Below, piece by piece: positions 32,101-59,347 of a DNA stretch of 64,000 nt; the first letter of the stretch is position 1, and each line of letters begins with the position of its first letter. The notes under the pieces were generated by a model. That model did no database searches and was not told the DNA's origin. It saw only the letters and a program-made list of their open reading frames with translations. The position numbers and the translations under genes are program-made. Location of the stretch: contig WFMF01000430.1 of the NCBI GenBank assembly GCA_011033025.1, forward strand, positions 1 through 64,000, read 5' to 3'. The DNA comes from Beroe forskalii (Eukaryota > Ctenophora > Nuda > Beroida > Beroidae).

Positions 32101-35100
32101 TGTGTCGGAAAGATACCAACATGCCTCAGGTTTTGAATGACACCGTATAACCTTATCTTACGATATTTTTTTCATTTTGAGGCCGTAATATTTCGTTTAT
32201 ATCATATGATATTTTCATCTGAATGTTTGTGTAAAATATTTACAATATTCCCGCATGATCAGGCTAGTGGTTGTAACACGTTGGATGGGGAAAAAGTTGA
32301 AGTTGTTCTGGAGGGGGAGATGTGGCCTAAACTCAATGTTCTACCCAACGAGATGATAGCCACCCCACAAGGACAGTACGTATGGGTTTTCTTTTTGGAG
32401 ATGCTGGCATCCTTGCCTACAATTTAATATATATTTTTTCACGATTCTCAAATTAGCCTGAGAAGGAAAAAAACTGAAGACTTTTCAATATTTGATCGAG
32501 AAAGAAATTTCCAGTTAGTAAGTTGAGTCTGTACCATCTTCAAAATAAAAACCTGAACGATACGTTACATATTGTGTGGGAAATTAAGAACTCAAACATT
32601 TTTCATAGCGAGACAATCTATAAATGTGTGCTTAATTCTACGTTAAATGAATTTGTACAAAAGTAGAAATTTTCTGGGCCTGATCAGTGCCTACAATTTG
32701 CTGCTTAGTTAGTGCTTACTTATAGTAGCTATTTTCCAGTCCATATGTTTACAGTTTCTGCCACTTATCAGATCAAAGTTTTGGTTTTTGATTTTATAAT
32801 AACACTTCAGACGGATGTTTCCCGAATTTCAATGTTCGAGTGAGTGGTCTCAAACCGATGCTGAACTATTTCATCTTTCTGATAGCCCTCCCTTTTTCTG
32901 ACAGGAAATACTGCTTCAGCGACCACTCCCAGAAGTGAGATTCGGATTTCACATCGATGCATGTCCTAATTATACCGTGATTCTTGAAAACCCTTGGCTT
33001 TTGACTCATTTTGTATTCTGAATTCTCCGATCTTCAAAAACCAAATGTTCATGTAGTTTTACCCAAATTGATTCCCATTCCTCGAAATCGCTACAGAATA
33101 ACTTATTCTATTTCTATAAACTGATCAGTATAATTATCTGTGTAGGTGGGTGGACGCAGGGCCGGCAGATGAGGAAAGTGAGTGTAACCTCTACTATCAT
33201 CCCGATACTCCCTGTCAAGGTTATCTAAAAACAGCAAATATGCTGTAATTTGCAAACCAGTTGATATTGAATAGTCTGATCTTTTGTGTAGATTTTTTGC
33301 CAATATGAATCATATCAGATCAAATGGATAATTCATCATGCTTAGCTAAGTCACATGATCACAATTTATTATATGGACAAATTGCAGGATTGGCATGGAT
33401 GAAGAAGCCAATTTCATTCAAAATCCCGAAGTTCACGACATGCTACCGAGAAGGGAACATGGTGAGTTTTAGATGATCTCCTACGATTTCTGGGCTTTCT
33501 CTACCACAGACAAGGAATCATAGGTAAAGGTTCTAATGATACTACAACTTCATTGTTCGAGCCATGAAGTGCTATGGGTAAAATGAACAGATACTGCACG
33601 CCTATTGGTCAAGCCATAAGATGCTATGGGTATTATATAACGACTAAAAATCCCCAGATCGAAGTGCGACTGGGACAGATGTACGTGCTAATATAAAACG
33701 ACTATTAAACAACTCCCAAGCCTGTTTTAGTGAACGTGTAAGTTGCGGTATACGGTCACCACTTCGACATGTAACCGCTTATTAATCCGCAGATCGAAGT
33801 GCGACTGGGACAGATGTACGTGCTAGCCCTGCACATTGTGGAGCTTAGTGACGACCCTACAGTCCCTAACAAGTGTGTCGAGGTGGTGTTCGAGGAAACG
33901 AAGTTCGTGGCTGTCGATTCCTTCAAGAACGAGGTAGGTTTGCTTCTTGATTTCAAGAATGGGGTAGGTTTGCTTCTTGATTTCAAGAACGAGGTAGGTT
34001 TGCTTCTTGATTTCAGAATGGGGTAGTGCAGTTTGCTTCTTGATTTCAAGAACGAGGTAGGTTTGCTTCTTGATTTCAAGAACGAGGTTTGCTTCTTGAT
34101 TTCAAGAACGAGGTAGGTTGCTTCTTGATTTCAAGAATGGGGTAGATTTGCTTGATTTCAAGAACGAGGTAGGTTTGCTTCTTGATTTCAAGAACGAGGT
34201 AGGTTTGCTTCTTGATTTCAAGAATGGGGTAGGTTTGCTTGATTTCAAGAACGAGGTAGGTTTGCTTCTTGATTTCAAGAACGAGGTAGGTTTGCTTCTT
34301 GATTTCAAGAACGAGGTAGGTTTGCTTGATTTCAAGAACTAGGTTTGCTTCTTGATTTCAAGAACGAGGTAGGTTTGCTTCTTGATTTCAAGAACGAGGT
34401 AGGTTTGCTTTGATTTCAAGAACGAGGTAGGTTTGATTTCAGAACGAGGTAGGTTCACTTCTTGATTTCAAGAACGAGTTTGCTTCTTGATTTCAAGAAC
34501 GAGGTAGGTTTGCTTCTTGATTTCAAGAACGAGGTAGGTTTGCTTCTTGATTTCAAGAACGAGGTAGGTTTGCTTCTTGATTTCAAGAACGAGGTTTCTT
34601 GATTTCAAGAACGAGGTAGGTTTGCTTCTTGATTTCAAGAATGGTGGTTTGCTTCTTGATTTCAAGAACGAGGTAGGTTTGCTTCTTGATTTCAAGAACG
34701 AGGTAGGTTGCTTCTTGATTTCAAGAATGGGGTAGCGAGGAGGTTTTCTTCTTGATTTCAAGAACGAGGTAGGTTTGCTTCTTGAATTCAAGAATGGGGT
34801 AGGTTTGCTTGATTTGCAGAACGAGGCAGGTTTTCTTCTTGATTTCAAGAATGGGGTAGGTTTGCTTCTTGATTTCAAGAACGAGGTAGGTTTGCTTCTT
34901 GATTTCAAGAACAGGGTAGGTTTGCTTGATTTCAAGAACGAGGTAGGTTTGCTTCTTGATTTCAAGAACGAGGTAGGTTTGCTTCTTGATTTCAAGAACG
35001 AGGTAGGTTTGCTTCTTGATTTCAAGAACGAGGTAGGTTTGCTTCTTGATTTCAAGAACGAGGTAGGTTTGCTTCTTGATTTCAAGAATGGGGTAGGTTT

Positions 35101-35893
35101 GCTTGATTTCAAGAACGAGGTAGGTTTGCTTCTTGATTTCAAGAATGGGGTAGGTTTGCTTGATTTCAAGAACGAGGCAGGTTTTCTTCTTGATTTCAAG
35201 AACGAGGTAGGTTTGCTTCTTGATTTCAAGAACGAGGTAGGTTTGCTTCTTGATTTCAAGAACGAGGTAGGTTTTCTTCTTGATTTCAAGAATGAGGTAT
35301 GTTTTCTTATTTATTCTAAGAACGAGGGTCGAGGTATGTTTTCTTGTTTTCGAGAATGAGTTAGGTTTGCACTTTGATTTCAAGAACGAGGCAGGTTTTC
35401 TTCTTGATTTCGAGAATGAGGTATGTTTTCTTCTTAATTTTAAGAGCGAGCGGGTCGAGGTATGTTATCTTCTTGTTTTCGAGAATGAGTAAGGTTCGCT
35501 TCTTGATTTCAAGAACGAGGTATGTTTTCTTGTTTTCAAGAACGAGGTAGGATTTCTTTTCGTTGATAAAACTAAATTTAAAACGCGGTGTGAGTTTGAT
35601 TCATTGAATCATTGATTCAGATTGCAACACCCAAGGGGCACTAGCTAGGGCACTAGCTGGGCACCACTTAAACTTAATTCCACAAATTTTGTAGACAAAT
35701 TTGGTCGATAATTTATTATTTTAGAACTTTATCACAATACTACACCCTATATTTCGTGACTATGACATATCTTGAGTATTCTAAATTATTTGTTGAATAG
35801 GACCTCGAAGTCAATAACCTCTGCTGTTCTTTTCAGGCTGTCGCTACGTTGAAGTATGACCGAAGGGGGAGGACCCCCATGCATGAACACTAA
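29175..35893 (+). CDS. Unrecognised multi-exon gene, possibly extracellular
   Basis: I do not recognise this protein. Proposed exons are 29175-29305, 29456-29544, 32020-32129, 32263-32375, 32905-32934, 33388-33461, 33793-33933 and 35837-35893. All junctions agree in phase except 33461 to 33793, where a short exon or another donor is probably missed. Visible segments include ENWERFKRLEIDMLGGIMSE, SLCSHTCIDEETNKWVCRKD, EVVLEGEMWPKLNVLPNEMI, KYCFSDHSQK, GQMYVLALHIVELSDD and a stop after TPMHEH. Several cysteines suggest an oxidising location, but no signal peptide was found. The start is uncertain: an ATG lies at 29175 and an in-frame acceptor (tttcag) at 29184, so the first exon could be internal. 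A candidate AATAAA lies at 36042. The last intron is largely the 33934-35560 minisatellite. Confidence 0.6.
29545..32019. other. Intron of the unrecognised gene
   Basis: AT-rich, with one TGACGT-type element near 31008. Nothing else recognised. Confidence 0.5.
33793..33933 (+). CDS. Unknown gene, exon whose donor seeds a minisatellite
   Basis: This 47-codon exon runs from phase 0 to phase 0. It encodes IEVRLGQMYVLALHIVELSD, then DPTVPNKCVEVVFEETKFVA and VDSFKNE. Its last 12 bases (ttcaagaacgag) and the donor gtaggt recur in every unit of the adjacent array. A truncated copy of its 5' end lies at about 33655-33693. Confidence 0.75.
33934..35560 (+). repeat. 30-bp minisatellite spanning a splice donor, about 50 copies
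   Basis: The unit is ttcaagaacgag + gtaggtttgcttcttgat: the last 12 bases of exon 33793-33933 plus its donor. Variants with caagaatgggg and shortened units occur, and 35290-35560 is more diverged. Many stretches are open in several frames because the unit is a multiple of three. The repeated peptide in the exon frame is LLDFKNEVG. Confidence 0.95.
35837..35893 (+). CDS. Unknown gene, terminal exon
   Basis: It follows tgttcttttcag and encodes AVATLKYDRRGRTPMHEH and a TAA stop, in phase with the exon at 33793-33933. Confidence 0.65.
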   Translation, partial: AVATLKYDRRGRTPMHEH

Positions 35894-37365
35894 ACTACTA
35901 AACTACTCTCTCAAGATAATCCTCTCTATCAAGATACTCCTTAGAGTTTCAAAAGCAGCAGAGAATTTGCATCTCTTAACAAATACCATACTACTTAAGA
36001 CTATTACAAACTTTTCAAAAGAATTCCTGGATTCTCGGGAGAATAAAATCGAGGCGAGAAATATTATTTTATATGAGTTTGAAGTAGATTTAAAATTAAC
36101 TGGTACAATTTTGGAGATTTTTAAAGTTAATCCATAAATCAAAGCCATAAGCCCAAAGACTTTTTATATTGACGTAATTGAACTGCAATAGATTATTTTT
36201 TAGCATTTTATTTTTCATTAAATACACACAATATTTTGACCTAATAACAAAGTTTGAGAACTGTGACTTGATGTGATTTTGAGTTTATTTTTTTTAATTT
36301 CAACTTATTTTTAGATAATTTCAATATTTTATGCTTTAATATGACTTAATTCCTAATATATTCCGCACAGTTTTAGTTTGATGTTATTGTATTTGATATT
36401 TCCGCCATTAATCTTTATATGGCAATTGAAGGCTTCTCGTGGATGTTTGGAAAATTTTGTAGTTTTCAAAAAAAATCAATTTGTATTATATTCATTGATG
36501 GGTTGTAATTTCAAACTTGGAAATTGTGCTTTCTTAGATCCTTGTATTGTCTTTTCATCAATGAAACGAATTAAAAAATCCGGCATGTCAATTTCTTGAA
36601 ATTCCCTGTCCCCCTGACTTCTATACAGCACCGACGTGCTGTATAATCACGTGGAAATCATTAAACTGGAGTTATAAGTTGCTTCATTGCATGAAATCCT
36701 ATGGCTCTAAAGTAGAAATAAGCCACCTTATCGTACATTATTTTGGGTGGGAATAATTCTGGGCGCTTGGAGGACAAGGAAACTTAATTTTTTGACAAAT
36801 GTCTGAAAATAATGGATATCGGACAGTTTTCTCATGAAAATGAAATATTTTTCCGTCAAATGGCGGGACATGATAAATGGTCGGACACACTATTATTAAG
36901 TCCTCTAGCGCCCATGTTATGACCGATCAATACTTCAATAATGTCTGATACGGAATAACGATTGAGCATGGTATTTTTTCAATATTTTCACAGCAAAGAA
37001 AAAGTGAAAAAGTGAACTTTGAGTTTAATATTGGAATTAAATCCAAACGAACATTACATTACCAATTGACATAGCAAAGAATTTAATTTACATTTAAGTT
37101 CTCAAATGGTTATCAAAAAGCACTGAATTTCAGTTGAAATATCAAAATAAATTAAAGTATCAAACATAGCCTGAGAGTTTTCTATGCTAAAAGCTGGCTT
37201 TGAGAAATTCTAAAAGATAAGAGTTCTATGAAATAAATTTTATTTTAAAAAGAATATCAATATCGAAAAGTCAAAACAAAAATGAAAAAACAGGCATAAA
37301 GTGGCTGAACTATAAATATATCATACTTTTAGTCGCATAAATCAATTTACAATTTCTCAAGTTTT
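35894..37365. other. Convergent intergenic region
   Basis: It lies between the 3' ends of the + strand unknown gene and the - strand calpain-7 and is very AT-rich. Candidate poly(A) signals are at 36042 (+) and 37238-37243 (-). Confidence 0.6.
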
Positions 37366-37550: not shown

Positions 37551-40500
37551 CTGTAGATCAATTTTCATGTAGAATCGGGAAATTCACTTAACCCATTACA
37601 AGCCATGTCCTCAATAATATAGTACCGTTATAATACAACAGGATAACGAAAAAAAGTACACAAGTACCAAATCGCGGCGTAAAACGCCGGGCCTAAAAGA
37701 TGGAGACACCAGTGTTAAATTCATTCAATTATCAATGTACCTGATTTGGGGTAGACAGTACCTGATTTGGGGTAGACAGTACCTGATTTGGGGTAGACAG
37801 TACCTGATTTGGGGTAGACAGTACCTGATTTGGGGCAGACAGTACCTGATTTGGGGTAGACAGTACCTGATTTGGGGCAGACAGTACCTGATTTGGGGTA
37901 GACAGTACCTGATTTGGGATAGACAGTACCTGATTTGGGGAAGACAGTACCTGATTTGGGGTAGACAGTACCTGATTTGGGGTAGACAGTACCTGATTTG
38001 GGGCAGACAGTACCTGATTTGGGGTAGACAGTACCTGATTTGGGGTAGACAGTACCTGATTTGGGGTAGACAGTACCTGATTTGGGGTAGACAGTACCTG
38101 ATTTGGGGTAGACAGTACCTGATTTGGGGTAGACAGTACCTAATTTGGGGTAGACAGTACCTGATTTGGGGTAGACAGTGAAGCCAGAGTGGAAGGCAGC
38201 TGGGGCCTCCAGCTTCACCAAACACTCCGTCTCCAAACACTCGTGAGTATCAATGGTCAGGATATAGTTAGGGTTCTTCATGTGGGTGCTGAGGAAATGC
38301 CATGTTATCAGCTTTATATTCTTTACGAAAATTCAAAATTTCCGCAAACGATGAAAATTCAATATGACGTTATGATCATACGTTAATAACATAAAATTTC
38401 GATCACCATAATTATTTTCCAACAAAATATATGTCTCGTGAGGTCTACAACGTTCAGTGTTCACTTAAAGTTAATCTACGCTGAGAATAAAAAGGCCGTC
38501 GCACTGATGTCATCAACATTGTTCGAGCTGCCAAATTTTTGAAAATATAACCGCCTGATTTTGGCGACCTGAGGGTACCTGTAGTTGGGACATCCCCCGG
38601 CCGTTTGACTGGTCCACTCCCCCGTCACTTTGTGTTTGAACGGGTAGTGCTCCGGAATACCGGATATCTTAAATGTCTCCGTACTGAACACTCGGATACT
38701 GAAACAGTGGGATACTGAAATAGTGGGATACTGAAATGATGGGATACTGAAATAATGGGATACTGAAATGATGGGATACTGAAATGATGGGATACTGAAA
38801 TGATGGGATACTGAAATGATGGGATACTGAAATAATGGGATACTGAAATGATGGGATACTGAAATGATGGGATACTGAAATGATGGGATACTGAAATGAT
38901 GGGATACTGAAATGATGGGATACTGAAATGATGGGATACTGAAATAGTGGGATACTGAAATAGTGGGATACTGAAACAGTGGGATACTGAAATAATGGGA
39001 TACTGAAATAATGGGATACTGAAATGATGGGATACTGAAATGATGGGATACTGAAATGATGGGATACTGAAATGATGGGATACTGAAACAGTGGGATGAA
39101 GACGCACATTTCACAGTTAGAGCGTTGACTTTCAATTAAGTCTAGATCTAAAGTTGGATATATTTTGCATCTTTATAGATTCCCAATTCAATCGACCTAC
39201 CCCTTCGGCTGATGACGTAATATTTGATAGCTCCCTAAGTGCAGCAGTACCTGTAGGTGATGTTGTTGGTCTTCTCGTACTGGGACACAACTAAAGTGTA
39301 GGTGCTGGAACCGCTTGCAGCATTAAGTCGGGCTAGGTAGTGCGGCGAGTTGATCTTAGTTCCTGTTTTGAACGGGGTTCCAATTTTAGTGAATTAAATG
39401 GATATATACAGAATATTGATTAAAATATGAACTTTTGGGTTTGGACTATTACTCAGTTGTTCGCAACTCAGGAATAGTACTCTCCCAAAAAGAGAACTTG
39501 ACGTTGGAAGTTGCAATCAGACAGAGAAAATCATCAAATCCCCACGTTTAACACTGAAGTCCTATGATAAATGATAATGACGTCATCAATTCACCACATT
39601 TTCCTATGATAATGACGTCATATACGAACCGCTGAGCAGAGCGTTTTCCGGGTAGTAGATCCTGTCTCCCAGGGAGGAGTAGACGTGGAGTGAGATGAAC
39701 TCCTTGTTGTTCGCGAAGTCCTCCTTCTCTGTGATGTGCCTGAGTAAAGTATTGCTTTACTATGCCCCAGATATGCCCTTGCTATGCCACAACCATATCC
39801 TAATTATGCCCCAACAGTGCCCCAACTAAGTCCTCAGTGCCCCAACTATGCACCGGTATCATTGGACCCTTTAGAAGTTGATAAGAGGCTTGTTATCAAT
39901 AATAATAATAAATTTTGTCGGTTTGATGAGGGCTGGGGCTTGATTGTTAAATTTGGCGTGGTTCATTAGTCCACAGGATTCACCTTCCTTATTTAAGGGA
40001 TCAGGATTATTACGGGTAAGCTTATGTTTATGCCGCCGATATGTTTTAATCAGAATTGCTCAGATTTGAGTGGAGCGAATCAGAATTGCTCTTAATTTGA
40101 GTGGACCGACAATGGATGGGGAAGTGCTTTTGTCAGAAGAGCTGGTTATGCGCAATATGATCAGGGGTATGCGGGTCACCGGATACCCGTAGAGGGGTAA
40201 TTGAAAGTTTTTTATTATTCGGGTTCTATCCTAACTTCTTGACTCACCAAAATGGAGCAGTAATAGGTGTATCTCAGTTTTTTTCAGTAGTATGTGGCAT
40301 TTGCTTTGCCACGCAAGTATCATGAACACAGTTTACGCTATCAAGTTGCCACTTTGACCTTTGATTATGACGTCACTTCTTACTTAAACGGGAAATGGGA
40401 CTCCTTCTCAAATTTCGATGAAGAATGATTCTCATTTCTCGATCGCAACTTTATGCATATGTGTGCAGACCGCTCGAATGACAGAGGCCTCGATAAAGAC

Positions 40501-43500
40501 GCGCGGATTTCCACTGCGCGCTTCAACTTTCTATATAAATTCCGTCAAAAGCACACAATTTCGCGCGTCTTTATCGAGGCCTCCTTCAACCGAGCGGTCT
40601 GCACACATATGCGTATTGCAAACCCTGCTGTGACTTACCGAGACAGGAGAATCCACATGGTGCAGGGTCGCTTAGCTTTGACAATTTCCAGCTTATACTG
40701 AGGGTTGTACTCCAGGTTGTACAGGTCCTTCTTGGGGCCCTGGTCTGCTGACCACTCCGCGTGCAGGCTATACCTGGGGAAAAAATTATTAGAGGAAACT
40801 ATAGAGGAGACATCTCTCTACTAGGCTATAACTTGGGAGAGAAAACTAGAGAAAAAACAGGGCATAATCTCGCTAAAAATGCACTTTTTAAGCCATGGCG
40901 GTACCAAATGACAACACTCATTATATTTGCAAACGATTAGAGTGTGGCCATTACCTGTAGAGGAAAAGCTTAGGGTTCCAGTTGAGGTAGACAACGTCAA
41001 AGAAATGCAGACAAATCTCCCAGCTGATCCAAAAGACGCCGTTATCGTAGTCAACGGCAGACATAACGTCGAAATTCAGGGCTTTCTGAAATCATCCATG
41101 TTCAATATAACGTCATCATTTTATTCTATGATAATGACGCCATGTATTTTGATCATCACTCCGTATACATATACAATAAACTTGAAGTTCTGGACTTCTA
41201 GTAAGATTATTAACCCTGCCAATGTCATTCAATATTCTGGAATGTATGATTTGTCTGGCTGTCTGCCTTCCATTCCGCATACCTTATTTCATAAAATCAA
41301 GAGATCATGAAACTACGGTTACACTTTTTAAGTTGCACAAAATAAAATCCCGTCGCTCAATTATTGAAAAAGGAGGGCGATCACCTGAAATTACCTGGAG
41401 TTCTGTAATAAGGAATACCTGGAGTTCTGTAATAAGGAGTACCTGGAGTTCTGGTGTCCAGCTCTCCTTGTCCTGCGGAGAGTACTTCCCTTTCCACCGC
41501 AGGTGACACCACGGGTTCTTCAGCTGGATCATCCGCAGACCGTTCACTTCCCTCAGGTCCAACACCTGAGGGTTAGAGAGGGGGTGAAAAAAATACGGGC
41601 CTGAATTAAGAAACTTGTCAATTTCAAGAGGTTGAGAATGAGACTGTGTTTTAGTAGTATCAAGTTGCCGAACTTTTCCACTGCGTATGTCCCCTAACTC
41701 AAAGCACGCCCTGACAAATACCCCTTGACAAAGACCTTAGCAAGTAGGTCCGTGCTAACTATTTATGGGGATACGCTCTTTTAGGCCCCACCTTCTTGGG
41801 CCAATTTGGGATTTTCTATAAAACCAGGGCCTAAAAGAGCGTTGCCCCCCATGGTATGTGTGTCCTGTTACTCACCGCGTACGCGTGACACTCGACCAGT
41901 CCGGCCCTGTCACACTCCTGCTTTGAAAGGGCTCCGGTAGCTACCGTCATCAACACGTCACCCGTCCTGTGCCCGTCCAACATCCCTGCGAGTGGTCGAA
42001 TGGTGTCACGTGATATCAATCTTGCTCGTCATTGGTCAGTGTTTCTGTGAGCTTGTGATTCAGTAACTGCTAAGTGCACTCATCAGTAAAAAACAAAATG
42101 GTAGTAAAAAGTTAAAATAATAATCTAAACCTTTTTAGTAGTCCCCGCCAATCGAGATAGATAGGGTTTAGAATAAAGGTATACTTTTTCTACTACACTT
42201 ATGGAATTTAAATAATTAAAATTAATTAAATTAAGGAGCTCAGACTTACTCCGGTATAGACTGTCCGTGTGCTTGGAGTCAGTTCGTTTGACGTTAACTC
42301 GCTCCGGGACCCACCCTGTGAGGGCCACCAAGTCTACTGTACTGGAGGAACCGGGGAAGTCATAGCCTCCCATCACCTAGGGTGACAACCAATCAGAAAC
42401 AAGGACTGAAATGGGGGAGCCAATCAGAAACAAGGAATGGAATGGAGAGCCAATCAGAAAGAAGATCTAAAATGGGGGAGCCAATCAGAAAGGAAAACTG
42501 AATTAGGGGAGCGAGTAACATACTAGAACTGAAATAGGCGAGTCATTCAAAAACAAAGTATTAAAATATTGGGGATCCAATCACAATCGCGTGGATAGTC
42601 AATTGGACCAATCAGAAGTTGCAGATGAGTCGAAGTGTAATTGAATCAATCAGCTGCGTTTGTTGTAACATGTTGACCAATCACAACACCGCACCTTCAT
42701 GTAAGCCTTCTCGAGGAGTGACACCCAGAACTCATTCCTGTTGGAGCTGTAGGAGCACAGTAAGTCTCCGTGCTTATCAGTTGGCAGGTAGTCGTCAATA
42801 GTCACCTGCAAAATATGGAATGAACTTCGAGCGTTAAATGCGCAATGAGCATCAGTTCTCAAGACTCAAGTTAACATGATTTTGACAAATTATCTTCAAT
42901 TTTTGTGTAGTAATTATTGAATATTATACAGTTGCCAAAATCTTGTCAGATTTCCCCTGGTTACCTTGCGGTGAACTCCATTCAACCAAAGCTTCACAAC
43001 ATACTTCCCACTCGGGTTGTAAACCGGGAGACCTGCCCTGCGGAGAAAGACATGGATTTAGGTGGTTGAGTGACGTCATTATCATAGCTCAAAGTAGAAA
43101 ATTGTTGGCGTAGAAATATAAGCATATATCACATGCAGCTTTGACATGATGGTCATGGATATATATGTATATTTTGTCATAAATTTCTCTAACATGATCC
43201 TTTGTTCTTATTTTTCTTTCTCAATTTTGAAATAAAAGTGAAACCTGTTCTGCGGGTAGATAATGTTTGTGATGATCTGGGTTTTAAACCTCCGCTCGTA
43301 GTGTGCACTGGAAAAGTTTAAAAATAATCCAAAAAAAAGCTTTCATCGAGGATCTTACACAAGACTCACCATTTAAAAATGCTTCTTATTCTCAAATACC
43401 TTATTGTAGGAAATAAAGCACTCAGAAAATTAAGCACCAATGCCTCTAAAAGGGCTTAATTTCATGGTGCTTAATGACGTGCTGGCTTAATTTTTGTATA

Positions 43501-52500: not shown

Positions 52501-55500
52501 TAGAAATTTCACATGAAATTGGACTGATAGTGATATACCATACAACGAGACATTCGGTATGAATAAGCACAAATAAAAAGATTGATCAATTGTTTTGTAG
52601 GATTTCCAATCGTACCCAACTATTAATATACATTGATTAATTCTACAACCAACACAAATATGAAAAATAATTGTCACATGACTTAGCCACTGACAAATAA
52701 ATAAAAGTTAAACTTTGAGACTTCACAGGAAATTTGACAGAGGCCCAAGCCAACACAACATTCGGTAAGAAAACACCATCTGCATGGTAAACCAAAGGTT
52801 ATAATCTTGGTTTTGTTAAACCTACCACCATAGACCATAGTACACCGGGCTAAAAGCAACCCATAGATTAAACAAGATCTCCTAACTTTATGCTATAGAT
52901 CTACTCATCTCAGTCACCCATGTTGCAATTAAATCTGAAATTATGAGATTTCACAGGAAACTGGACATACGCACCGTTGAACTTTACATTCGGTAAGTAA
53001 AAGCAATCTTTACCAAATCCTAAGTAAGGTTGTTGTATGTGCAATGGTCATGTCTCCGTTTGGTAGCGTCTTCTACAAAATTTAAAAGAAAAATCTCATT
53101 TTCCCACGATTTTAGAAAAATAAGCCCAATTAAAAACTCGGTTTTAAAGCAAATTCAATTATCAAAAAGTTAAAAACTCTGCATCTCAGCAAATTGGACA
53201 AATTCCTCCTTCGACACAGTTTACGGCTTCAACCTCGAAGAAGACTCCCTGCAAGTCACAACAAAATCTACAATCGGCAGCGGAGCACAGATGCGAATCA
53301 ATTTCATCTCGAACACGGGTAAAAGTGCCGGGAGCATGACCGTGGTTTTTGGAGATGATGCCATTAAGTACCGACTGAACGATTGTACGGACGAGCCATA
53401 CGCCAAGTTCACTCGAGGTAAGGTTGGTTTTTCTCGTCAATGACGAGTAATGGTTGTTAAAATCACATCCCCTCGGGCATTATGTCCCTCTTCCAACACC
53501 TCATCCCACTGTCAAAAAACCTTATGTTACGTGCTTTTCTCTCCAATCAAACGTGCGATTTCCTCGGAAATCTGCAGTTTATCTCCAATATAATGAAGCC
53601 CAATATGTCATTTAAACCAGGCACACCCCCGGAAGACCCCAACAAAATATGGACGATGTGGAAGGCCCAGGAGTATTTCTACGTCTCGTGTAACGGGGTG
53701 CTGGTTAGTAGAGAGGCATAGGACGAAGTTGTGAAAACTGAACTGGTGCCCATAAAATAGGGACTATGAAATGAGCTTTTGATAGATTTTTTGACATCAA
53801 AATGCACGATATTATCAAGTTTCATGAAAATCTGACCATGGGAATTGCACATAACTGTCGTTTAAAAATCGTTTTAAACCCCCTGTCTCTCTACTTTTAT
53901 TTATTATAATAATTATTTATCATTATTACTAGGTGGAAGCTAAGAACGTGGAGCGATGGTGTACGGGAGTTAACCAGGAGAACTGGTTGCGGGATATCGC
54001 TGGCTTTGGCTTTTTAGCAACTCCTGCGAGGGAGCCGAGAGAGTTCAGGAAAAAGCCCGGTATTATTTTACACAAAACTGTTGTCTTCTGCGTTATATTT
54101 GTAATTGATCAGATCAAGTGCAGATACTGATACCCTCAAACTCCGCATGTGTCACTAAAAGGGTATATTTTAGCCTTTTCCAGTGAATCAAAGCATCTGT
54201 GTTTTTCAGTGTGTGGAGTGGGGTACTACGCAGCTTATGAAGGATGTGTGAAGTGTCCTGCGGGTACTTACACTAACAAAACAGACACAGACACGGCCTG
54301 CACAGCCTGTCCGGACGGGAAACAGTCAGCTGCGGGGGCAACTGCCGTAGATCAGTGCTATGGTGAGTTGACAAGTTGAGATGCTACAATCAGCCAATAA
54401 GGTGATTAGCCAATTTCAAGTTGAGATGCTATAATAAACTAATAAGTTGATTAGCCAACCATTCAGTCAGTCCATCAATCAATCACTTGATCTATTGATG
54501 AAGTGATCCATCAATCAATCAATCAGGCATGAAGCTATCCACCAATCAATCAACTTATAAATACGATTTATCCGTTTTCCCGCAGCTGTAGAAACAAATA
54601 TTTTCCTTACGAACCCAGATATAATAGACGTTTCAGAAATCTTTGGGTGTAATTTACATAAAGGCAGAATGGCTGAAATTTGAATTGATACAGACAAGGA
54701 TTAAGGAAAGTTGACAAGCCTCGACTGCTATTGTTTTGTTTAGCTCACATTTTTCGTGGAAATGAGAATGGAACAACAATATCTTATCACTGAGGTTTGG
54801 ATAACCATTGATATTTGACCGCTCTTTTCTCAAATTCAATCCCAATATTATTCAACCCCTTCCTGATATATCCAACCCCCATTTTCCATATATATCCAAC
54901 CCCCATTCCCAATGTACATCCAACCCCGATCCCCAATGTACATCCAACCCCTCAGCGTCACACAAACCTCGGCAGGCTTCAGTTTCCTGGACACACCCCC
55001 GGCTGAGTGCGAGTCCCCCTCATCTTCCGGGAGGATAGCCACACTCGAGTGGGAAGCTTCCTGAATCGAGTGGGAAGCTTCCTGACTCGAGTGAGAAGAT
55101 TCCGGACTGCTGTGAGATTCCTCCCTGTTTACTGACTCGTGTTTGTCGCTTTCGTCTTGGGCGGGTGCCAATGATGCTGGGAGAGGTGTTTATGTTACAT
55201 ACTTGAAATGGAAACTTGAAAAAAAGCAAAAATCTTCATGTGACATGAAAGAAAAAGCAAAACAACGAAAACCGGAAAAAATATGGCACCCAATAACTGT
55301 AAGAAGATACGTCACCATTCGACATTTTAAAGTGGGTGGAAAGGACTCCGTTGCCTGCAGGTCACTTGTATGCGGTGAATAGTAACGGTGAATGAAAGAG
55401 AATCTGATGTCAGATGAAAAATACTCGTTATCAATTCGGATTTCGACCATCTTGAAAATAAAATCAATTCCAACTGATGTCTCGAAATCTACTCTTGTTT

Positions 55501-58500
55501 CAATTTCGGAATTCAACAAAATGCTCTGAATTAGAGGAATAATAATATCCAAAAAAGCTAAAACAAATTCAGTTGTTGACGAGAAGTTCCGAGATGAAGG
55601 AGAAATTACCGGATTCTTCCTGGCCTACTTTTCCGGCAGTTTTTCCTTTCTCAATTTCGTCTGCTAGTTCTTCAGCCCTGGGCGATGATAGTGAATTAAA
55701 ATGCGATTTAACTTTTCGTATGATTTGTCAAATACCGCGTGTAGTCAAGATGATACAATTACGAGAAATGTTGAGATTGATATCGCAATTTGAAGTAAAT
55801 CTATGTTTTTTACTATGAAGCTTGTTATAAAATGCATTCAAGTCAAGCTACCTTCGTAAGCTTTGATCAGCACGTAGATTTAGCTTCTGTAGCGTAGCTG
55901 GAAAGTTTACATTGGAACGCTGAAAGTGAACAATTGATAAAAAAAAAAGTGCGGAGAATTATAAACTGTAATTTCAACGCCCCAGGGAAATGAAACACAA
56001 GTTATCTGCTCAGTTACCTTCAGCCCAACAGAGCTCTTGGAACAATGAATAACCAACAACTCATAGCAGTCTAAAGTCGTTGATGGATCGCACATAAAAA
56101 AAGCTTACAAAACATACACACATCATTTTATTTGGGTGGGCGAGTACTTTTTAATAAATTTGTAGGCGGCTAACTTGGTTAGGATTTGTGTTTGGGATTT
56201 GTCTTGGTTTAAGAATACATCAATGGGTTGACCGGTTGGATAGAGAAACTAGGAAGCAGTCTGCAAATAATATTCATCGCGCGCTGCTCGCTTCAATAAT
56301 GGGACGTGACATAATATACGTACATGCGCGCGCGTTAAATGCGTCAAGAGGATCACAAAAATATTTTCGCGCAATACAATTTGGGGAAAAATGTTTTTGC
56401 TCAAAATTGCCATTCAAGAATGTCTGTACCAAAAAGTGTACTTACTTGAAATACACGTGTGGCAGGTGTGTCACCACTTCATAATGAAAATTAGGCCATG
56501 ATTACGTGTCTAATCCTGAAGGAATACTTATGGTCACCCAAAAATTGCGGGAATTTGTCAAAATTTCAAGCATGAGGAAGTTTTATGGCCATTAGGCACG
56601 CAACCTTAGGAAAGTGGTGTCAACGTCACAACACGTGACATAATGGAATGTTTCACACGCAGTCTAATGAAAGTGGTGTCAACGTCACATTACGTAAAGG
56701 AATGGAATGTTTCACACGCAGTCTAATGAAAGTGGTGTCAACGTCACAATACGTGACGTTATGGAATGTCAGACACGCAGTCTAATGAAAGTGGTGTCAA
56801 CGTCACATTACGTAAAGGAATGTGGGACACGACGTAGTGTGACGTAAAGTGGTGTCAGTAGCTACCTTATAAAGGGCTGCTCACGTTGAACACATCAGTT
56901 CCGCCCAACAGTTCGAAAAGACTCCACCCCTCCAGATGACACGAACCAGAAGACTCCACCCTTCCTCCAGATGACACGAACCAGAAGACCCCACCCTTCC
57001 TCCAGATGACACGAACCAGAAGACCCCACGCTTCCTCTAGATGACACGAACCAGAAGACCCCACCCTTCCTCCAGATGACACGAACCAGAAGGCCACACC
57101 CTTCCTCCAAATGACACGAACCAGAAGACCTCACCCTTCCTCCAGATGACACGGACCAGAAGACCCCACCCTTAGTCCAGAAGACCCCACGCTTCCTCTA
57201 GATGACACGAACCAGAAGACCCCGCCCTTCCTCAAGATGTCACGAACCAGAAGGCTACACCCTTTCTCTAGATGACAGGAACCAGAAGACCCCACCCTTT
57301 CTCCGGATGGCACGAACCAGAAGACCCCATCATTCCTCCAGATGACACGAACCAGAAGACCCCACCCTTCCTCCAGATGACACGAACCAGAAGACCCCAC
57401 GCTTCCTCTAGATGACACGAACCAGAAGACCTCACCCTTCCTCTAGATGACACGAACCAGAAGACCCCACGCTTCCTCTAGATGACACGAACCAGAAGAC
57501 CCAACCCTTCCTCTAGATGACACGAACCAGGAGACCCCACGCTTCCTCTAGATGACACGAACCAGAAGACCCAACCCTTCCTCTAGATGACACGAACCAG
57601 AAGACCCAACCCTTCCTCCAGATGACACGGACCAGAAGACCCCACCCTTCCTCCAGATGACACGAACCAGAAGACTCCACCCTTCCTCCAGATGATACGA
57701 ACCAGAAGACCCCACTCTTCCTCCAGATGACACGAAGCAGAAGACTCCAACCTTCCTCCAGATGACACGAACCAGAAGACCCAACCCTTCCTTCAGATGA
57801 CAGCTGATGTTTGTGCTAAAGTTTTACCTTCTGTACTTGAAGATACGAACCGTGAATGCCTTAAACACGGAAGAACCGACACTCGAATCTGGTCGGGATC
57901 TTCAGACTATCAAGTTGAATCATTTTTTAATGCTGTATATCTAGCAGTGACGGGTCTGTCAGAAGGATCTAGCCAAATCCTCCGTCCCATGAGTTAGATA
58001 CACGGTAACAGCGTTGATTCACATTGATAGCCTGATTGACGCGGTGTGTTTTCTCTGTCCCTGTTCCGCTATGACTAACAACTCGTTTCGCTAACCGTTA
58101 GGCCAGACACTCTCCTACCTAATGCATGTAATTAGCACTTCCATAACAATTAGTAATAAACTCACCGATCCTAAGCAAAGTTGAGCAGTGTCCTTATACC
58201 GTTCTAGAGCAGTGTGGGCGTGGCCGGCTTCATCCTCTGAGATTAATTCACATCAGATAAATCGACGCCTCCTTTCAAAAAATGTGGATACGTCCCTAGA
58301 ATCAACCAATGGAAAATCAAGCAACTCAGACGTTGAGAGATAGAGAGAGTAAACCATACCTACTCACCTAGTATAGCCTGCTCCATAAGAAACTCAATGT
58401 TTTTCAGTAGAGCAGAGTCATCCGTTTGGGCGGAAGGAACATTGACCGGTGGAGCACATGAGAAAAAGAATATGTTATTATGTTAGCAGGTTCAAACTAC

Positions 58501-59347
58501 AAAAGTATCCAAACACCGAATCAAAATTTAAGTACTATAAAACTTAAAATACTATAAAACATTGTCGTTGAAACCTATTATAGTGATTGCTCTTGAAACG
58601 AGCCATCACCGTAATATCGTGATATAATTCTAGACTTACTGGCAACTTGTTTGAGTTGTTCTGCTCTGTCAATGTAGCTCTGTATCGTTGGGTGAAGGTG
58701 GGAAAAACTGAAATAAAGAAATATACCGTACTCACATTTAGTTAGAAACTGCCAATAATTGCAGTGTTTGAAAGGGGAAATAATCTCTTTCTTGACTAGA
58801 ATAAATTATGGGGGGGGGGGGTCGGCGATTTATGCCCAACCCTGTATAATATATCAATATTCATACCCAGCTCAGTTTCATGGCTAGTCAGTCGTTTATC
58901 AAGAAACGCACCAATAACCATGGTGGAATATGGAATTTCACGATCTTCTGGATACTATCAAAGTATCAATCTAAGCCTTGATGGAAACCTACCTAAGATC
59001 GACATTGGTCGCAACAAGGAGCAAATTCTTACCTAGGATCGATATTGGTCGCATTAAGGAGCAAATTCTTACCTTGGATCGATATTGGTCGCATTAAGGA
59101 GCAAATTCTTACCTTGGATCGATATTGGACGCATTAAAGAACAACTTCTTACCTTGGATCGATATTGGACGCATTAAAGAGCAACTTCTTACCTTGGATC
59201 GATATTGGTCGCATTGAGAAGAACATTGACAGCTTCAGTGTAGTAGAAGATGGCGGATGCAGCGTTTCCTTGTTGGTCGAAAGCGAGCGCTTGTTCGACA
59301 TACGTCTTTCCTTCCTCGTATAGCTGTGCTGATGAGCATTCTGTCAT
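37366..59347 (-). CDS. CAPN7: Calpain-7 (MIT-domain calpain), 23 exons
   Basis: This is an intracellular papain-like cysteine protease. In known calpain-7 the MIT domains bind ESCRT-III proteins. The exons, in transcription order, run from 59193-59347 to 37366-37550 and are listed singly. They join in phase, apart from one unclear acceptor near 58447, and give about 828 residues, close to the vertebrate length. N-terminal MIT-like helices are followed by a Ser/His-rich linker and the protease core: Cys in [14 protein letters not shown], His in LVECHAYA and Asn in QLKNPW. Two C2-like domains follow, with [18 protein letters not shown] and GGCPNYR. The EF-hand region of classical calpains is absent, as expected. 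Two genes on the other strand lie in the 44814-54967 intron, and four of its exon borders carry repeat arrays that include the splice site. The identification is firm, since the order and spacing of motifs match the family throughout. Confidence 0.95.
37738..38181 (-). repeat. 21-bp minisatellite spanning a CAPN7 splice donor, about 21 copies
   Basis: On the minus strand the unit is gtctaccccaaatcag|gtact. Every unit carries the CAG|GTACTG donor, and the frame continues as TVYPKSG heptapeptides. It is very homogeneous, with single-base variants. Confidence 0.96.
38161..38288 (-). CDS. CAPN7: CAPN7 exon 22
   Basis: It encodes [20 protein letters not shown], then [20 protein letters not shown] and KS. 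The donor aaatcag|gtactg at 38161 is repeated about 20 more times downstream with the frame kept. Confidence 0.9.
38579..38698 (-). CDS. CAPN7: CAPN7 exon 21: second C2-like domain
   Basis: It encodes [20 protein letters not shown], then [34 protein letters not shown] matches the family's NGKW.GQSAGGC.N. Its acceptor (tttcag|tatcc) is the last unit of a 16-bp acceptor array at 38699-39095. Confidence 0.93.
38699..39095 (-). repeat. 16-bp minisatellite spanning a CAPN7 splice acceptor, about 25 copies
   Basis: On the minus strand the unit is tatcccatcatttcag, which combines the first five exon bases (tatcc) and the acceptor tttcag. Variants have catcat, ctatt, cacta or cattatt cores. The last unit runs straight into exon 38579-38698. 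Confidence 0.95.
39251..39362 (-). CDS. CAPN7: CAPN7 exon 20
   Basis: It encodes [20 protein letters not shown], then [16 protein letters not shown], matching INSPHYL........[13 protein letters not shown]. Confidence 0.94.
39563..39632 (+). repeat. TGACGTCA dispersed element
   Basis: gataatgacgtcatcaattc and accac separate two full TGACGTCA palindromes, with gataatgacgtcat at both ends. It overlaps the donor side of CAPN7 exon 19. Confidence 0.75.
39630..39739 (-). CDS. CAPN7: CAPN7 exon 19
   Basis: It encodes [20 protein letters not shown], then [16 protein letters not shown], matching HIT.K.DFANN.EFI.........YYP of the family. Confidence 0.93.
40455..40612 (+). mobile_element. Long inverted repeat with arms of about 50 bp
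   Basis: The left arm gcatatgtgtgcagaccgct and gaggcctcgataaagacgcg pairs with the right arm cgcgtctttatcgaggcctc and agcggtctgcacacatatgc. It is a MITE-like hairpin inside a CAPN7 intron. Confidence 0.6.
40639..40773 (-). CDS. CAPN7: CAPN7 exon 18: first C2-like domain
   Basis: It encodes [20 protein letters not shown], then [20 protein letters not shown] and ILLS, matching NPQYKLE.......W.LLSR in calpain-7. Confidence 0.93.
40955..41085 (-). CDS. CAPN7: CAPN7 exon 17
   Basis: It encodes [20 protein letters not shown], then [20 protein letters not shown] and [12 protein letters not shown]....FF..VYL.WNP is conserved in the family. Confidence 0.94.
41393..41448 (-). repeat. 24-bp donor duplication at CAPN7 exon 16, three donors
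   Basis: On the minus strand aactccag|gta occurs three times, separated by ctccttattacag-type spacers. The two extra units remain in frame and would add VLLITELQ and VFLITELQ. Confidence 0.9.
41443..41565 (-). CDS. CAPN7: CAPN7 exon 16: catalytic asparagine
   Basis: It encodes [20 protein letters not shown], then [20 protein letters not shown] and Q. The asparagine in KNPW is the triad residue. The donor at 41443 has two further tandem copies, at 41419 and 41395, in 24-bp units. Confidence 0.95.
41876..41985 (-). CDS. CAPN7: CAPN7 exon 15: catalytic histidine
   Basis: It encodes [20 protein letters not shown], then [16 protein letters not shown]. The histidine in CHAYA is the triad histidine. 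Confidence 0.95.
42250..42376 (-). CDS. CAPN7: CAPN7 exon 14
   Basis: It encodes [20 protein letters not shown], then [20 protein letters not shown] and Y. GGYDFPGS....L.ALTGW.PER is diagnostic of calpain-7. Confidence 0.96.
42385..42605 (+). repeat. Repeated gagccaatcagaaa motif
   Basis: There are about six copies spaced 35-40 bp apart in a CAPN7 intron. Further ccaatcaga copies lie at 45505-45560 and 49710-49800. The motif looks like a CCAAT box but sits in introns. Confidence 0.7.
42695..42805 (-). CDS. CAPN7: CAPN7 exon 13
   Basis: It encodes [20 protein letters not shown], then [17 protein letters not shown], the calpain IDD.LP...G.LL.S.S....WVSL.EKAY.K block. Confidence 0.95.
42965..43037 (-). 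CDS. CAPN7: CAPN7 exon 12
   Basis: It encodes [20 protein letters not shown], then VHRK, the NP.GKY.VKL..NGV.RK block of the protease core. Confidence 0.93.
43245..43307 (-). CDS. CAPN7: CAPN7 exon 11
   Basis: It encodes [20 protein letters not shown], matching the conserved YERRF....IT.IIYPQN of calpain-7. Confidence 0.93.
43399..43875 (+). mobile_element. MITE-like foldback element, TA flanks, CCTTATTG ends
   Basis: The ends CCTTATTGTAGGAAATAAAG and CTTAATTTCCTACAATAAGG are inverted copies flanked by TA (43397-43398 and 43876-43877). Subterminal aattaagcacc...cctctaaaagggc motifs appear on both arms, and a central palindrome (ttccctatgtat...atacatagggaa) lies at about 43592-43626. It is in a CAPN7 intron. 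Confidence 0.65.
43994..44111 (-). CDS. CAPN7: CAPN7 exon 10: catalytic cysteine
   Basis: It encodes [20 protein letters not shown], then [18 protein letters not shown]. The cysteine in SDCSF is the calpain-7 nucleophile. Confidence 0.95.
44116..44300 (+). repeat. Purine-only tract, 10-20-bp ggaaggggag repeats
   Basis: This strongly strand-asymmetric G/A tract (gttggggaaggaaggggag units) is next to the acceptor of CAPN7 exon 10. On the coding strand it is the pyrimidine tract of that intron. Confidence 0.8.
44409..44494 (-). CDS. CAPN7: CAPN7 exon 9
   Basis: It encodes [20 protein letters not shown], then DKQKKHFG, followed across the splice by GWKRISDM. Confidence 0.88.
44746..44813 (-). 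CDS. CAPN7: CAPN7 exon 8: pre-protease segment
   Basis: It encodes [20 protein letters not shown], then AD. This matches the conserved stretch before the calpain catalytic domain. Confidence 0.88.
46035..46090 (+). repeat. Hairpin with 15-bp outer stem
   Basis: aatttcccgttttga pairs with tcaaaacgggaaatt, with an inner cgtctaacaatagacg stem. A GC palindrome tgcgcggcgta.t.tacgccgcgca lies nearby at 45841-45863. Confidence 0.8.
46187..46243 (+). repeat. TGACGTCA dispersed element
   Basis: It reads aacgtcactaattatacact, then tcaaaccatgataatgacgtcactctcaac in pieces, in the same order as copies at 6178, 7101 and 50208. Confidence 0.75.
46657..47695 (+). CDS. Secreted protein A: novel domain plus ephrin-receptor-like Cys module (nested in CAPN7 intron)
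   Basis: The exons are 46657-46735, 46875-47312 and 47543-47695, and all borders are phase 1. The first exon begins [20 protein letters not shown], a signal peptide. An earlier out-of-frame ATG at 46652 stops after one codon, so 46657 is chosen. The second exon encodes a domain of about 145 residues that I cannot name, with [44 protein letters not shown] and [17 protein letters not shown]. Paralog B has the same domain. The third exon has six cysteines spaced as C.....C..C..C......C.C..C (ephrin-receptor-like, GCC2/GCC3 type) ending SVAACY. Past the tatg|gtcagt donor the array begins, and read-through would stop at once (CYGQ, TAG). No convincing later exon was found. Function is unknown; it is probably extracellular. 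Confidence 0.82.
46875..47312 (+). CDS. Secreted protein A, exon 2: main domain
   Basis: The 438-nt exon covers the whole domain that paralog B splits over three exons (53190, 53621 and 53933). The lost or gained introns lie after GRFLRA and after CNGVLL by alignment to B. Confidence 0.85.
47543..47695 (+). CDS. Secreted protein A, exon 3: ephrin-receptor-like module
   Basis: It encodes [20 protein letters not shown], then [20 protein letters not shown] and [11 protein letters not shown]. It is exactly the same length (153 nt) as the matching exon of paralog B at 54210-54362. Confidence 0.88.
47696..48440 (+). repeat. 20-bp minisatellite spanning the donor of secreted protein A, about 37 copies
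   Basis: The unit is ttatg|gtcagtagtgaggtg. The exon's last bases (tgttatg) and donor gtcagt recur in each unit, and most units are identical. It is followed at 48440-48640 by degenerate ggtcactggtcagtagctagg copies. Confidence 0.96.
48441..51494. other. Spacer between secreted proteins A and B
   Basis: No exon was recognised. It includes the 50062 palindrome, three TGACGTCA-type elements and ccaatcaga copies. Confidence 0.5.
50062..50101. repeat. Perfect 40-bp palindrome with no spacer
   Basis: Each half reads aaaactttggtagttgaaaa. The symmetry centre lies between 50081 and 50082. Confidence 0.95.
51495..51590 (+). repeat. 16-bp palindromic tandem repeat
   Basis: Units of ccaccgtggaattc(t/c) are themselves nearly palindromic. 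The array lies just upstream of the first exon of secreted protein B. Confidence 0.85.
51788..51887 (+). CDS. Secreted protein B, exon 1: signal peptide
   Basis: The ATG at 51788 is followed by a hydrophobic core ([10 protein letters not shown]) and an acidic DDGHDDGQD segment. The donor is gag|gtaaga in phase 1. Confidence 0.8.
51788..54683 (+). CDS. Secreted protein B: signal peptide, mini-exon sequon cassette, novel domain, ephrin-receptor-like module
   Basis: Exons are 51788-51887 ([20 protein letters not shown] signal peptide, then a DDGHDDGQD acidic run); mini-exons 52109-52153, 52312-52356, 52515-52556 (acceptor lost), 52729-52764 and 52957-52992; main domain 53190-53417, 53621-53703 and 53933-54059; Cys module 54210-54362; and possibly a last exon 54586-54683. 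Phases agree throughout. The domain shares [21 protein letters not shown] and VSCNGVL with paralog A. The Cys module encodes [20 protein letters not shown] and more. The last exon would encode [20 protein letters not shown] and stop. Alternatively, read-through of the 54362 donor stops at CYGELTS, with AATAAA at 54433. It is secreted by inference and its function is unknown. Confidence 0.8.
52109..52992 (+). CDS. Cluster of five duplicated 36-45-nt mini-exons
   Basis: Each copy has the form ttcacag|gaaa...ttcg|gta and both borders are phase 1, so any subset can be included. They encode [52 protein letters not shown] and [11 protein letters not shown], each with two N-X-T sequons. The third copy has cacatg instead of cacag at its acceptor and is probably skipped. 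The copies are about 200 bp apart. They resemble the start of the main exon ([13 protein letters not shown]), so they may be partial duplications of its 5' end. Confidence 0.8.
53190..53417 (+). CDS. Secreted protein B, main-domain exon
   Basis: It encodes [20 protein letters not shown], then [40 protein letters not shown] and [15 protein letters not shown], paralogous to the first half of the domain in protein A. Confidence 0.85.
54210..54362 (+). CDS. Secreted protein B, ephrin-receptor-like module
   Basis: It encodes [20 protein letters not shown], then [20 protein letters not shown] and [11 protein letters not shown]. It has C..C and G.Y..C..CP.G.Y spacing typical of ephrin-receptor-like repeats. 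Confidence 0.88.
54586..54683 (+). CDS. Secreted protein B, possible last exon
   Basis: After gttttcccgcag, in phase 1, it encodes [20 protein letters not shown], then [12 protein letters not shown] and a stop. The support is only the phase and the good acceptor. Confidence 0.4.
54845..54958 (+). repeat. 20-bp tandem repeat next to CAPN7 exon 7
   Basis: The units resemble atatccaacccccattttcc and catccaaccccgatccccaa. The array ends about 10 bp from the minus-strand donor at 54967 but does not include it. Confidence 0.8.
54968..55176 (-). CDS. CAPN7: CAPN7 exon 7: Ser/His/Glu-rich linker
   Basis: It encodes a low-complexity linker with internal [19 protein letters not shown] repeats between the MIT and protease regions, ending SRKLKPAE. 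It joins in phase 0 to the exon at 44746-44813, giving [17 protein letters not shown], which aligns with the family's EEIEVLR..S.ING segment. Confidence 0.85.
55610..55677 (-). CDS. CAPN7: CAPN7 exon 6
   Basis: It encodes [20 protein letters not shown], then ES. RAEEL completes the MIT helix. Confidence 0.82.
55852..55886 (-). CDS. CAPN7: CAPN7 exon 5: second MIT, third helix
   Basis: It encodes [11 protein letters not shown]. The acceptor ctacag|aag keeps the frame with the preceding phase-0 donor. An alternative acceptor ten bases upstream (at 55896) would not join in frame. Confidence 0.65.
56590..56865 (+). repeat. 60-bp tandem repeat, about four copies
   Basis: The unit contains aaagtggtgtcaacgtcaca, ttacgt and ggaatgtttcacacgcagtc. 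It is in a CAPN7 intron, and its core is shared, inverted, with the 27840-28100 array. Confidence 0.88.
56920..57795 (+). repeat. 35-bp minisatellite, about 25 copies
   Basis: The unit is made of agatgacacgaaccagaaga and ccccacccttcctcc, with variants. It lies inside the CAPN7 intron between exons 4 and 5 and does not touch a recognised splice border. Confidence 0.93.
58166..58236 (-). CDS. CAPN7: CAPN7 exon 4: second MIT
   Basis: It encodes [20 protein letters not shown], then CLGS, the second MIT repeat (DE.G....AL..Y..A..L). The borders are ctcag and gtgagt. Confidence 0.88.
58368..58447 (-). CDS. CAPN7: CAPN7 exon 3: start of second MIT (acceptor unclear)
   Basis: It encodes [20 protein letters not shown], then EQAIL, ending at a good gtgagt donor. 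No AG is available immediately upstream of the coding part before an in-frame stop, so the 5' border here is approximate. Confidence 0.65.
58640..58707 (-). CDS. CAPN7: CAPN7 exon 2: end of first MIT
   Basis: It encodes [20 protein letters not shown], then [11 protein letters not shown] is the third MIT helix. It starts after tatttcag and ends at a|gtaagt. Confidence 0.85.
58990..59195 (-). repeat. 40-bp tandem repeat spanning the CAPN7 exon 1 donor
   Basis: On the minus strand each unit contains gcgaccaatatcgatccaag followed by gtaagaa. Donors fall every 40 bp, near 59192, 59152, 59112, 59072, 59032 and 58992. Confidence 0.93.
59193..59347 (-). CDS. CAPN7: CAPN7 exon 1: start and first MIT domain
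   Basis: The ATG at 59347 starts [20 protein letters not shown], then [20 protein letters not shown] and [19 protein letters not shown] is the MIT signature. The donor ccaag|gtaaga is repeated downstream in five further 40-bp units. It ends in phase 2. Confidence 0.88.

Follow-up and report, generated by a model that had tools for sequence, protein, structure and literature searches.

Minisatellites across splice junctions in a ctenophore genome are of the mirage type and are probably retained because splicing removes their surplus copies

Introduction

Do splice junctions attract tandem duplication, or do they tolerate it better than other places in a gene? This question is raised by a 64,000-nucleotide stretch of the genome of the ctenophore Beroe forskalii (GenBank assembly GCA_011033025.1, contig WFMF01000430.1, positions 1 to 64,000 of the forward strand; hereafter called the window), in which several minisatellites carry within their repeat unit the splice site of the adjacent exon. 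An earlier note on this DNA, which was made from the letters alone, had offered both explanations. The answer bears on the origin of new introns, which is an old question that is still open and for which clear intermediates are rare.

Six minisatellites in the window span splice junctions

Analysis with TRF locates all six arrays where the earlier note had placed them, each lying across a splice junction, and its division into five arrays over a 5′ splice site and one over a 3′ splice site is borne out as well. The arrays had been assigned to three or four genes, a number that our gene models settle at three (T-box, calpain-7 and TNFR/ephrin-receptor-like), with calpain-7 alone hosting four of the six. 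The tandem unit holds both exon and intron sequence across the junction, an arrangement that is met at 5′ and 3′ boundaries alike. In all six window cases the array extends on the intron side, and the exon part inside it is only 5 to 23 nucleotides. The arrays were also said to be independent events, a view that is upheld by the differences among their units and by the presence of the same structure in loci that were fetched without regard to arrays.

Most surplus copies retain intact splice dinucleotides. The GT or AG at the junction is preserved in 139 of the 146 array copies that could be recognised by having at most four mismatches to a short seed, and therefore a single intron may offer, at most, dozens of intact competing splice sites. 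These introns are natural tests of how the spliceosome makes its choice when as many as 56 nearly identical splice sites lie side by side.

Exon ends of the calpain-7 gene

The calpain-7 gene occupies positions 37366-59346 of the minus strand. Its 23 homology-called exons, when joined, form one open frame of ~842 amino acids in a homology-built model for which the start of exon 3 is assumed. Among the best 120 of 1022 matches to this model, the closest relative is a full-length protein of Mnemiopsis leidyi (P0115; 73% identity over 100%), and the second by score is 49% identical. Domains present in the relatives are MIT, Peptidase_C2 and Calpain_III.

Four TRF arrays cross exon ends of this gene. 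The donor of exon 1 (59193-59346) lies within a 40-bp array of 5.7 copies (58990-59215) that includes 23 exon nucleotides, and the donor of exon 16 (41443-41565) within a 24-bp array of 2.6 copies (41392-41453) that includes 11. The acceptor of exon 21 (38579-38698) is crossed by a 16-bp array of 24.7 copies (38694-39088; 5 exon nucleotides inside), and the donor of exon 22 (38161-38288) by a 21-bp array of 21.1 copies (37737-38179; 19 exon nucleotides inside). Every copy of the 21-bp array is in frame and free of stop codons, and the reading frame is open throughout. Two further arrays approach junctions of this gene and do not span them: a 31-bp array (42389-42556, minus strand) stops 12 bp short of the exon 14 acceptor, and a 24-bp array (54866-54951, minus strand) begins ~16 bp past the exon 7 donor.

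The reality of these four exon ends is supported at the protein level by relatives whose own sequences are partly predicted. P0115 aligns straight through all four array-bearing junctions (NVDPSMSHL, WTPELQKALNF, ISYSIRVF and PTSDQKFSK), joining its exons where the exon-proximal junction copies of the window would join, and the alignment reveals no array peptide in P0115 at any of the four. Further relatives agree at three of these places, with P0025 aligning at the exon 16/17 junction and P0007 at the 20/21 and 22/23 junctions; P0007, like P0115, joins at the exon-proximal copy of the 21-bp array. P0025, which judging by the style of its identifier is presumably from Pleurobrachia bachei, is silent on the first junction because it lacks most of exon 2. 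From these alignments we infer that splicing in vivo takes place at the exon-proximal copy. In the protein of another relative, P0114, the intron that follows exon 16 appears by eye to be read through, and because an array of the 24-bp unit was not seen in it, the exon 16 array looks recent.

It could be argued that multiple in-frame junction copies are kept as a functional rheostat for producing exon length variants. Three of the six window units (30, 21 and 24 bp) are multiples of three, and the 21-bp array is open in frame. The lengths of the other three window units (16, 20 and 40 bp) are not divisible by three, however, and among the tandem cases of the window and other loci, where units measure 16-86 bp, lengths of 16, 20, 26, 34, 40, 64, 74 and 86 bp would all shift the frame, and therefore surplus copies should generally be untranslatable. 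The Mnemiopsis orthologue is also without array-derived peptide, and we judge such a function to be very unlikely.

Functional protein repeats encoded by the open 21-bp array were considered separately, and are unsupported given that the orthologues join past the array. Exon 3 (58440-58470) lacks an AG at its expected acceptor (..TTTTTCTCATGTGCTCC..), for which an unusual splice site, an error of assembly or a polymorphic position could be responsible. Exon 7 contains a 21-bp repeat (55043-55108) that is coding and in frame (SHSSQEA), near the intronic 24-bp array past the donor of this exon. Between positions 46875 and 54362, plus-strand genes are nested within a 10-kb intron of the minus-strand calpain-7 gene. 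These nested genes comprise TNFR/ephrin-receptor-like exons and one unnamed domain, which may be FAMeT-like.

Exon ends of the T-box and TNFR/ephrin-receptor-like genes

The longest series of copies lies on the plus strand at positions 33922-35558, where a 30-bp array of 55.8 copies, with the unit TTCAAGAACGAG/GTAGGTTTGCTTCTTGAT (the slash marks the junction), covers the 3′ end of a T-box exon (33793-33933; acceptor CAG/ATCGAAGTG) and includes 12 exon nucleotides. GT is kept in 47 of the 54 recognised copies of this array. The next T-box exon, placed by homology, is at 35837-35890 (plus strand; acceptor CTTTTCAG/GCTGTCGC; end approximate). On its own, the first exon yields a Pfam T-box match that falls under the cut-off, and support for this junction comes from the homology of the joined exons to the Brachyury T-box (phmmer E 6e-7). 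The opposite end of the first exon is also copied, as evident by a 42-bp, 97.6% copy of its acceptor and exon start (33784-33825) located 135 bp upstream at 33649-33690 on the plus strand, which was recovered by the 24-mer copy test described below.

The sixth array, with a 20-bp unit in 37.1 copies (47689-48430, plus strand), crosses the donor of a TNFR/ephrin-receptor-like exon (47543-47695, ending ..ACYG/GTCAGT) and by its coordinates includes 7 exon nucleotides. No Pfam match was obtained for this exon on its own. Its end is supported by a paralogous plus-strand exon at 54210-54362 (Pfam Ephrin_rec_like above the cut-off; ending ..QCYG/GTGAGT), which is 48% identical over 50 amino acids, has the same end residue, and carries no array over its junction. 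An array does begin 9 bp past the junction of this related exon.

Might the junction-spanning arrays be products of misassembly or of wrongly called exon ends? The genome is rich in repeats, and runs of N occur in 2 of the 20 stretches that were sampled from it. However, copies differ among themselves within the six arrays (TRF matches of 82-97%), the complete and open calpain-7 model is matched by orthologues, and the same structure is present in unrelated loci. We consequently regard an artefact as extremely improbable.

Junction copies elsewhere in the genome

The assembly comprises 216 Mb in 1134 contigs. A junction was scored as copied if the 24-mer centred on it recurred within 1.5 kb with at least 20 of 24 positions identical. 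Among 61 junctions mapped in the window, six lie inside a TRF array and seven have a local copy by this measure, the extra one being the T-box 3′ splice site at 33793. Loci outside the window were obtained by Pfam searches of the same genome in which arrays were ignored, and consist of 20 calpain matches and two dynein stretches (L047 and L048) that were picked for exon density from a list of 86 matches. Kinases proved to be a poor exon set, with many of their 135 matches covering the whole domain in one frame. Local copies are present at 6 of 50 mapped junctions in the loci fetched by protein family, bringing the pooled count to 13 of 111 (donors 6/55, acceptors 7/56). That the rate is alike in these array-blind loci and in the window counts in favour of indiscriminate duplication.

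Outside the window, acceptors are copied at L029 (with the copies starting 74 bp upstream), L031 (64 bp spacing), L032 (42 bp spacing) and L048 (34 bp spacing), and L047 contains both a donor repeated 11 times with 26 bp spacing and an acceptor with copies 308 and 356 bp upstream. Another case involving a donor, L046 (86 bp x 3), stands outside the counts because it was fetched on account of its visible tandem hits. At this locus, near 53450-53708 of contig C441, a dynein exon end (~78 nucleotides, by eye) together with 8 intron nucleotides occurs in three tandem copies, and at a second place on the same contig matches recur with a similar spacing of 86-89 bp.

The junction counts also omit the calpain-7 exon 3 acceptor (no AG), the donors of L030 and L034 (end of the profile), the acceptors of L037 and L041, the locus L039 (a near copy of L041), the unclear donor of exon 1 in L048, and L036 (the same place as the window). 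They include the first 'acceptor' of calpain-7 (59352), which may be a transcript start. Outside the window, the positions of splice sites were judged visually with the help of profile matches and the consensus, and a few of them may therefore be wrong. A second dynein list and loci L001-L005 entered no test.

Placement of arrays relative to splice junctions

If the 24-mer is shifted from the junction into the exon, to positions -12, -24, -36, -48 and -60, copies fade to 8, 3, 1, 0 and 0 of 111. Shifted into the intron, to positions +12, 24, 36, 48, 60, 80, 100 and 120, it has copies in 12, 17, 15, 14, 14, 13, 12 and 17 of 111, and at +150 in 14 of 110. The rate of 13/111 at the junction is thus that of the near intron, and the junction behaves like intron sequence nearby. 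Within the window, copies were found for 3 of 108 exon-interior 24-mers and for 156 of 470 intron 24-mers, the latter number being inflated by the arrays' own length. The higher rate for intron 24-mers than for junctions (7/61) could reflect some purging at junctions, or the lengthening of introns by long arrays.

The explanation that we favour, and that we consider reasonably probable, is that tandem duplication is frequent and roughly indiscriminate, and that copies of junctions are retained because splicing removes the extras. Short stretches of this ctenophore genome are duplicated in tandem very often, and a duplication inside an exon would normally be purged by selection. A duplication that straddles a junction would leave an intact exon-proximal junction copy for the spliceosome to use, and all further copies would fall in the intron and be spliced away. 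With its surplus copies removed along with the intron, such an array would therefore be free to expand and homogenise. The duplication process would be indifferent to splice sites, save for a bias toward them that may amount to two- to threefold.

Some overlap between arrays and junctions is to be expected because 15.7% of a position-chosen sample is tandem repeat (12.9% once a single stretch, two-thirds of which consists of repeats, is removed). This sample consists of 20 stretches totalling 196,761 bases and is not fully random, with 10 of the 20 located on one contig and 2 on the contig of the window. Pure indifference nevertheless under-predicts what is observed, since arrays that cannot extend far into an exon would be expected to be scarcer at junctions than in the interior of introns, yet the near-junction rates are equal. 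Use of inner copies, which would also count against this explanation, is conceivable, and in the 21-bp calpain-7 array every copy is in frame and lacks a stop codon.

An alternative is that splice junctions are preferred for the first tandem duplication, for example if co-transcriptional splicing complexes or R-loops provoke slippage or breaks. The 43 introns contain 19 arrays, of which 6 span a junction, vs 2.2 expected under a null in which array births are uniform over the intron and its junctions (P 0.012). This pooled result divides into 5 of 12 vs 1.3 expected in the window (P 0.006), which was picked for the pattern, and 1 of 7 vs 0.9 expected outside it (P 0.67). Several junction-spanning cases could not enter this test: the acceptors of L029, L031, L032 and L048, together with the 47.7 kb array of the window, are left out because the other intron end is unmapped or the array is not TRF-listed. 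A preference would also fit the fall in copies at intron +24 to +120 to only 4-7 of 98 once duplicated junctions are set aside, as compared with 13/111 at junctions, from which about half of the nearby arrays appear to include the junction. However, near-junction intron positions, taken together, are duplicated as often as junctions.

The content of repeat units in the position-chosen sample is likewise divided on this issue. In comparison with unique windows of the same length, 60 distinct units are enriched in 5′ splice motifs (10 vs 4.2 at 7 bits or more, P 0.007; 3 vs 0.5 at 10 bits or more, P 0.013; P 0.007-0.020 over thresholds) and in strong 3′ motifs (3 vs 0.3 at 10 bits or more, P 0.003; P 0.003-0.03), with no significant excess of weaker 3′ motifs over unique windows (8 vs 6.1 at 7 bits or more, P 0.28; 6 vs 2.9 at 8 bits or more, P 0.07). 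Against shuffled units, which preserve single-base but not dinucleotide composition, 3′ motifs remain in excess from 8 bits up (P 0.01 or less), whereas the counts for 5′ motifs give P 0.09-0.16 at four of five thresholds and P 0.02 at 10 bits. Column-permuted decoy matrices applied to the same sample, with duplicate units kept, return a mean of 4.5 (sd 2.0) vs 7. Arrays located at a splice motif with an open flank number 11 of 119, which is about twice the expectation of 5.1 (P 0.015; P 0.025, 0.050 and 0.080 at other thresholds).

Most of these tests of placement yield an excess of about two- to threefold, in some cases with P 0.01-0.03, whereas the array test outside the window yields none. 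Because strong motifs in units and open-flank placement both exceed expectation, a moderate bias at the birth of arrays is possible. The data allow a bias of about two- to threefold toward junctions, which is short of a proven hotspot, and we consider preferential initiation at junctions a doubtful alternative. Of the two halves of the mechanism offered in the earlier note, tolerance is therefore the better one, as evident by copies that fade into the exon and persist at 13/111 of junctions. The notion of preferred sites is not established, given that the near intron has copies at a similar rate (12-17/111) and that placement outside the window yields P 0.67.

Several arrays of the sample that carry splice motifs adjoin coding-like open frames, namely L009 3976-4199, L011 7966-8126 and 8418-8591, L014 7808-8250, and L023 8011-8517. 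Those of L011 flank a single putative intron, one at each end. None of these five coding flanks gave a Pfam match above the cut-off, and for this reason they are not counted as proven junctions.

Candidate introns from tandem duplication

A third possibility is that the arrays are remnants of introns made by tandem duplication of an exon segment containing AG/GT (Rogers model). An in-register match of at least 9 nucleotides across both splice sites is present in 3 of 43 introns (16, 11 and 9 nucleotides), vs 0.34 expected from re-paired sites (P 0.003), with none of the three in the window. These introns, which bear a candidate signature of intron gain by tandem duplication, are a calpain intron on contig C873 (16 nucleotides) and two dynein introns on C790 (11 and 9 nucleotides, matches that are partly splice consensus). 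For the C790 intron with the 9-nucleotide match, a portion of the exon end is found again at the adjacent edge of the intron, as judged by eye, and authors of work on amphioxus globins propose the same route. However, the five array-bearing window introns tested, a set that excludes the 47.7 kb intron, share at most 6 nucleotides between donor and acceptor flanks, and we consider it unlikely that the arrays arose in this manner.

In the C873 case (L033), the intron separates the calpain exon of L040 from that of L027 and carries the 16 nucleotides AGGTAGTTGTAGACGA in register at donor and acceptor, and such in-register identity at both intron ends is what a tandem-duplication origin predicts. 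A less strict criterion (15 or more identical positions in an alignment of 24), under which the similarity is again partly splice consensus, is satisfied by 3 of 43 introns vs 0.13 expected, with calpain-7 intron 17-18 replacing the 9-nucleotide dynein case.

Junction arrays may occasionally seed new introns. Junctions with copies of themselves make up roughly a tenth of those sampled, and a small number of introns carry the same sequence in register at both ends; together these resemble graded intermediates in the origin of introns. It is also possible, albeit on a tentative basis, that tandem duplication biased to junctions keeps reshaping the structure of genes, with some copies becoming new introns and every stage catchable in one genome.

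Relation to known repeats at splice sites

The window arrays are mirage-type minisatellites, and thus belong to a kind that is already known. The earlier note knew of no named system, but 'mirages' were named in the amphioxus Adh3 gene, and genes for globins, for troponin C and for PGBD5 are described as having them too (PMC3087553, PMC3902484). As in amphioxus (Adh3, Gb6, Gb9, TnC, PGBD5), the unit lies across a 5′ or 3′ exon/intron boundary, unrelated genes are affected, and many copies keep AG or GT. The unit lengths of 16-86 bp observed here fall inside the amphioxus range of about 10-160 bp (PMC3087553). The arrays differ from amphioxus mirages by belonging to another phylum, by reaching up to 56 copies as compared with 3 and 6 in two Gb6 haplotypes, and by a frequency of about 1 in 8 or 9 among 111 sampled junctions, as known from the DNA of one assembly.

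No report of mirages in ctenophores was found in the literature searched, and one could exist outside that search. The genome paper for the ctenophore Hormiphora gives a tandem-repeat content of 13% and describes many nested genes, like those found here in the calpain-7 intron; repeats at splice junctions go unmentioned in the parts of that paper examined. That a ctenophore has mirages in addition to lancelets suggests that they are not peculiar to lancelets and originate where minisatellites turn over rapidly.

Other repeats associated with splice sites share some of these features. In human segmentally duplicated genes, minisatellites of ~30 bp at exon-intron boundaries are linked to alternative splicing and new introns (PMC2812944); that study concerns recent primate paralogues, whereas the arrays described here occur in unrelated genes. 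Intron gain by tandem duplication, for which the in-register flank signature has been described (ATP2A1; 24-bp repeats in fission yeast), involves the same duplication process, with splicing hiding the extra copy (PMC4974935). Such introns have both of their splice sites copied, whereas the window arrays copy a single one. UBC and other repeat genes with dual-specific AGGT splice sites also combine tandem repeats with splice signals, but these repeats are coding and their sites serve in both roles (PMC10809524).

Elsewhere in the window, two arrays at 27020-27172 and 27409-27698, ~240 bp apart, have units (GCACACCTGGG / TGTGCCCCAGG) that seem to be related to each other, one being inverted with respect to the other.
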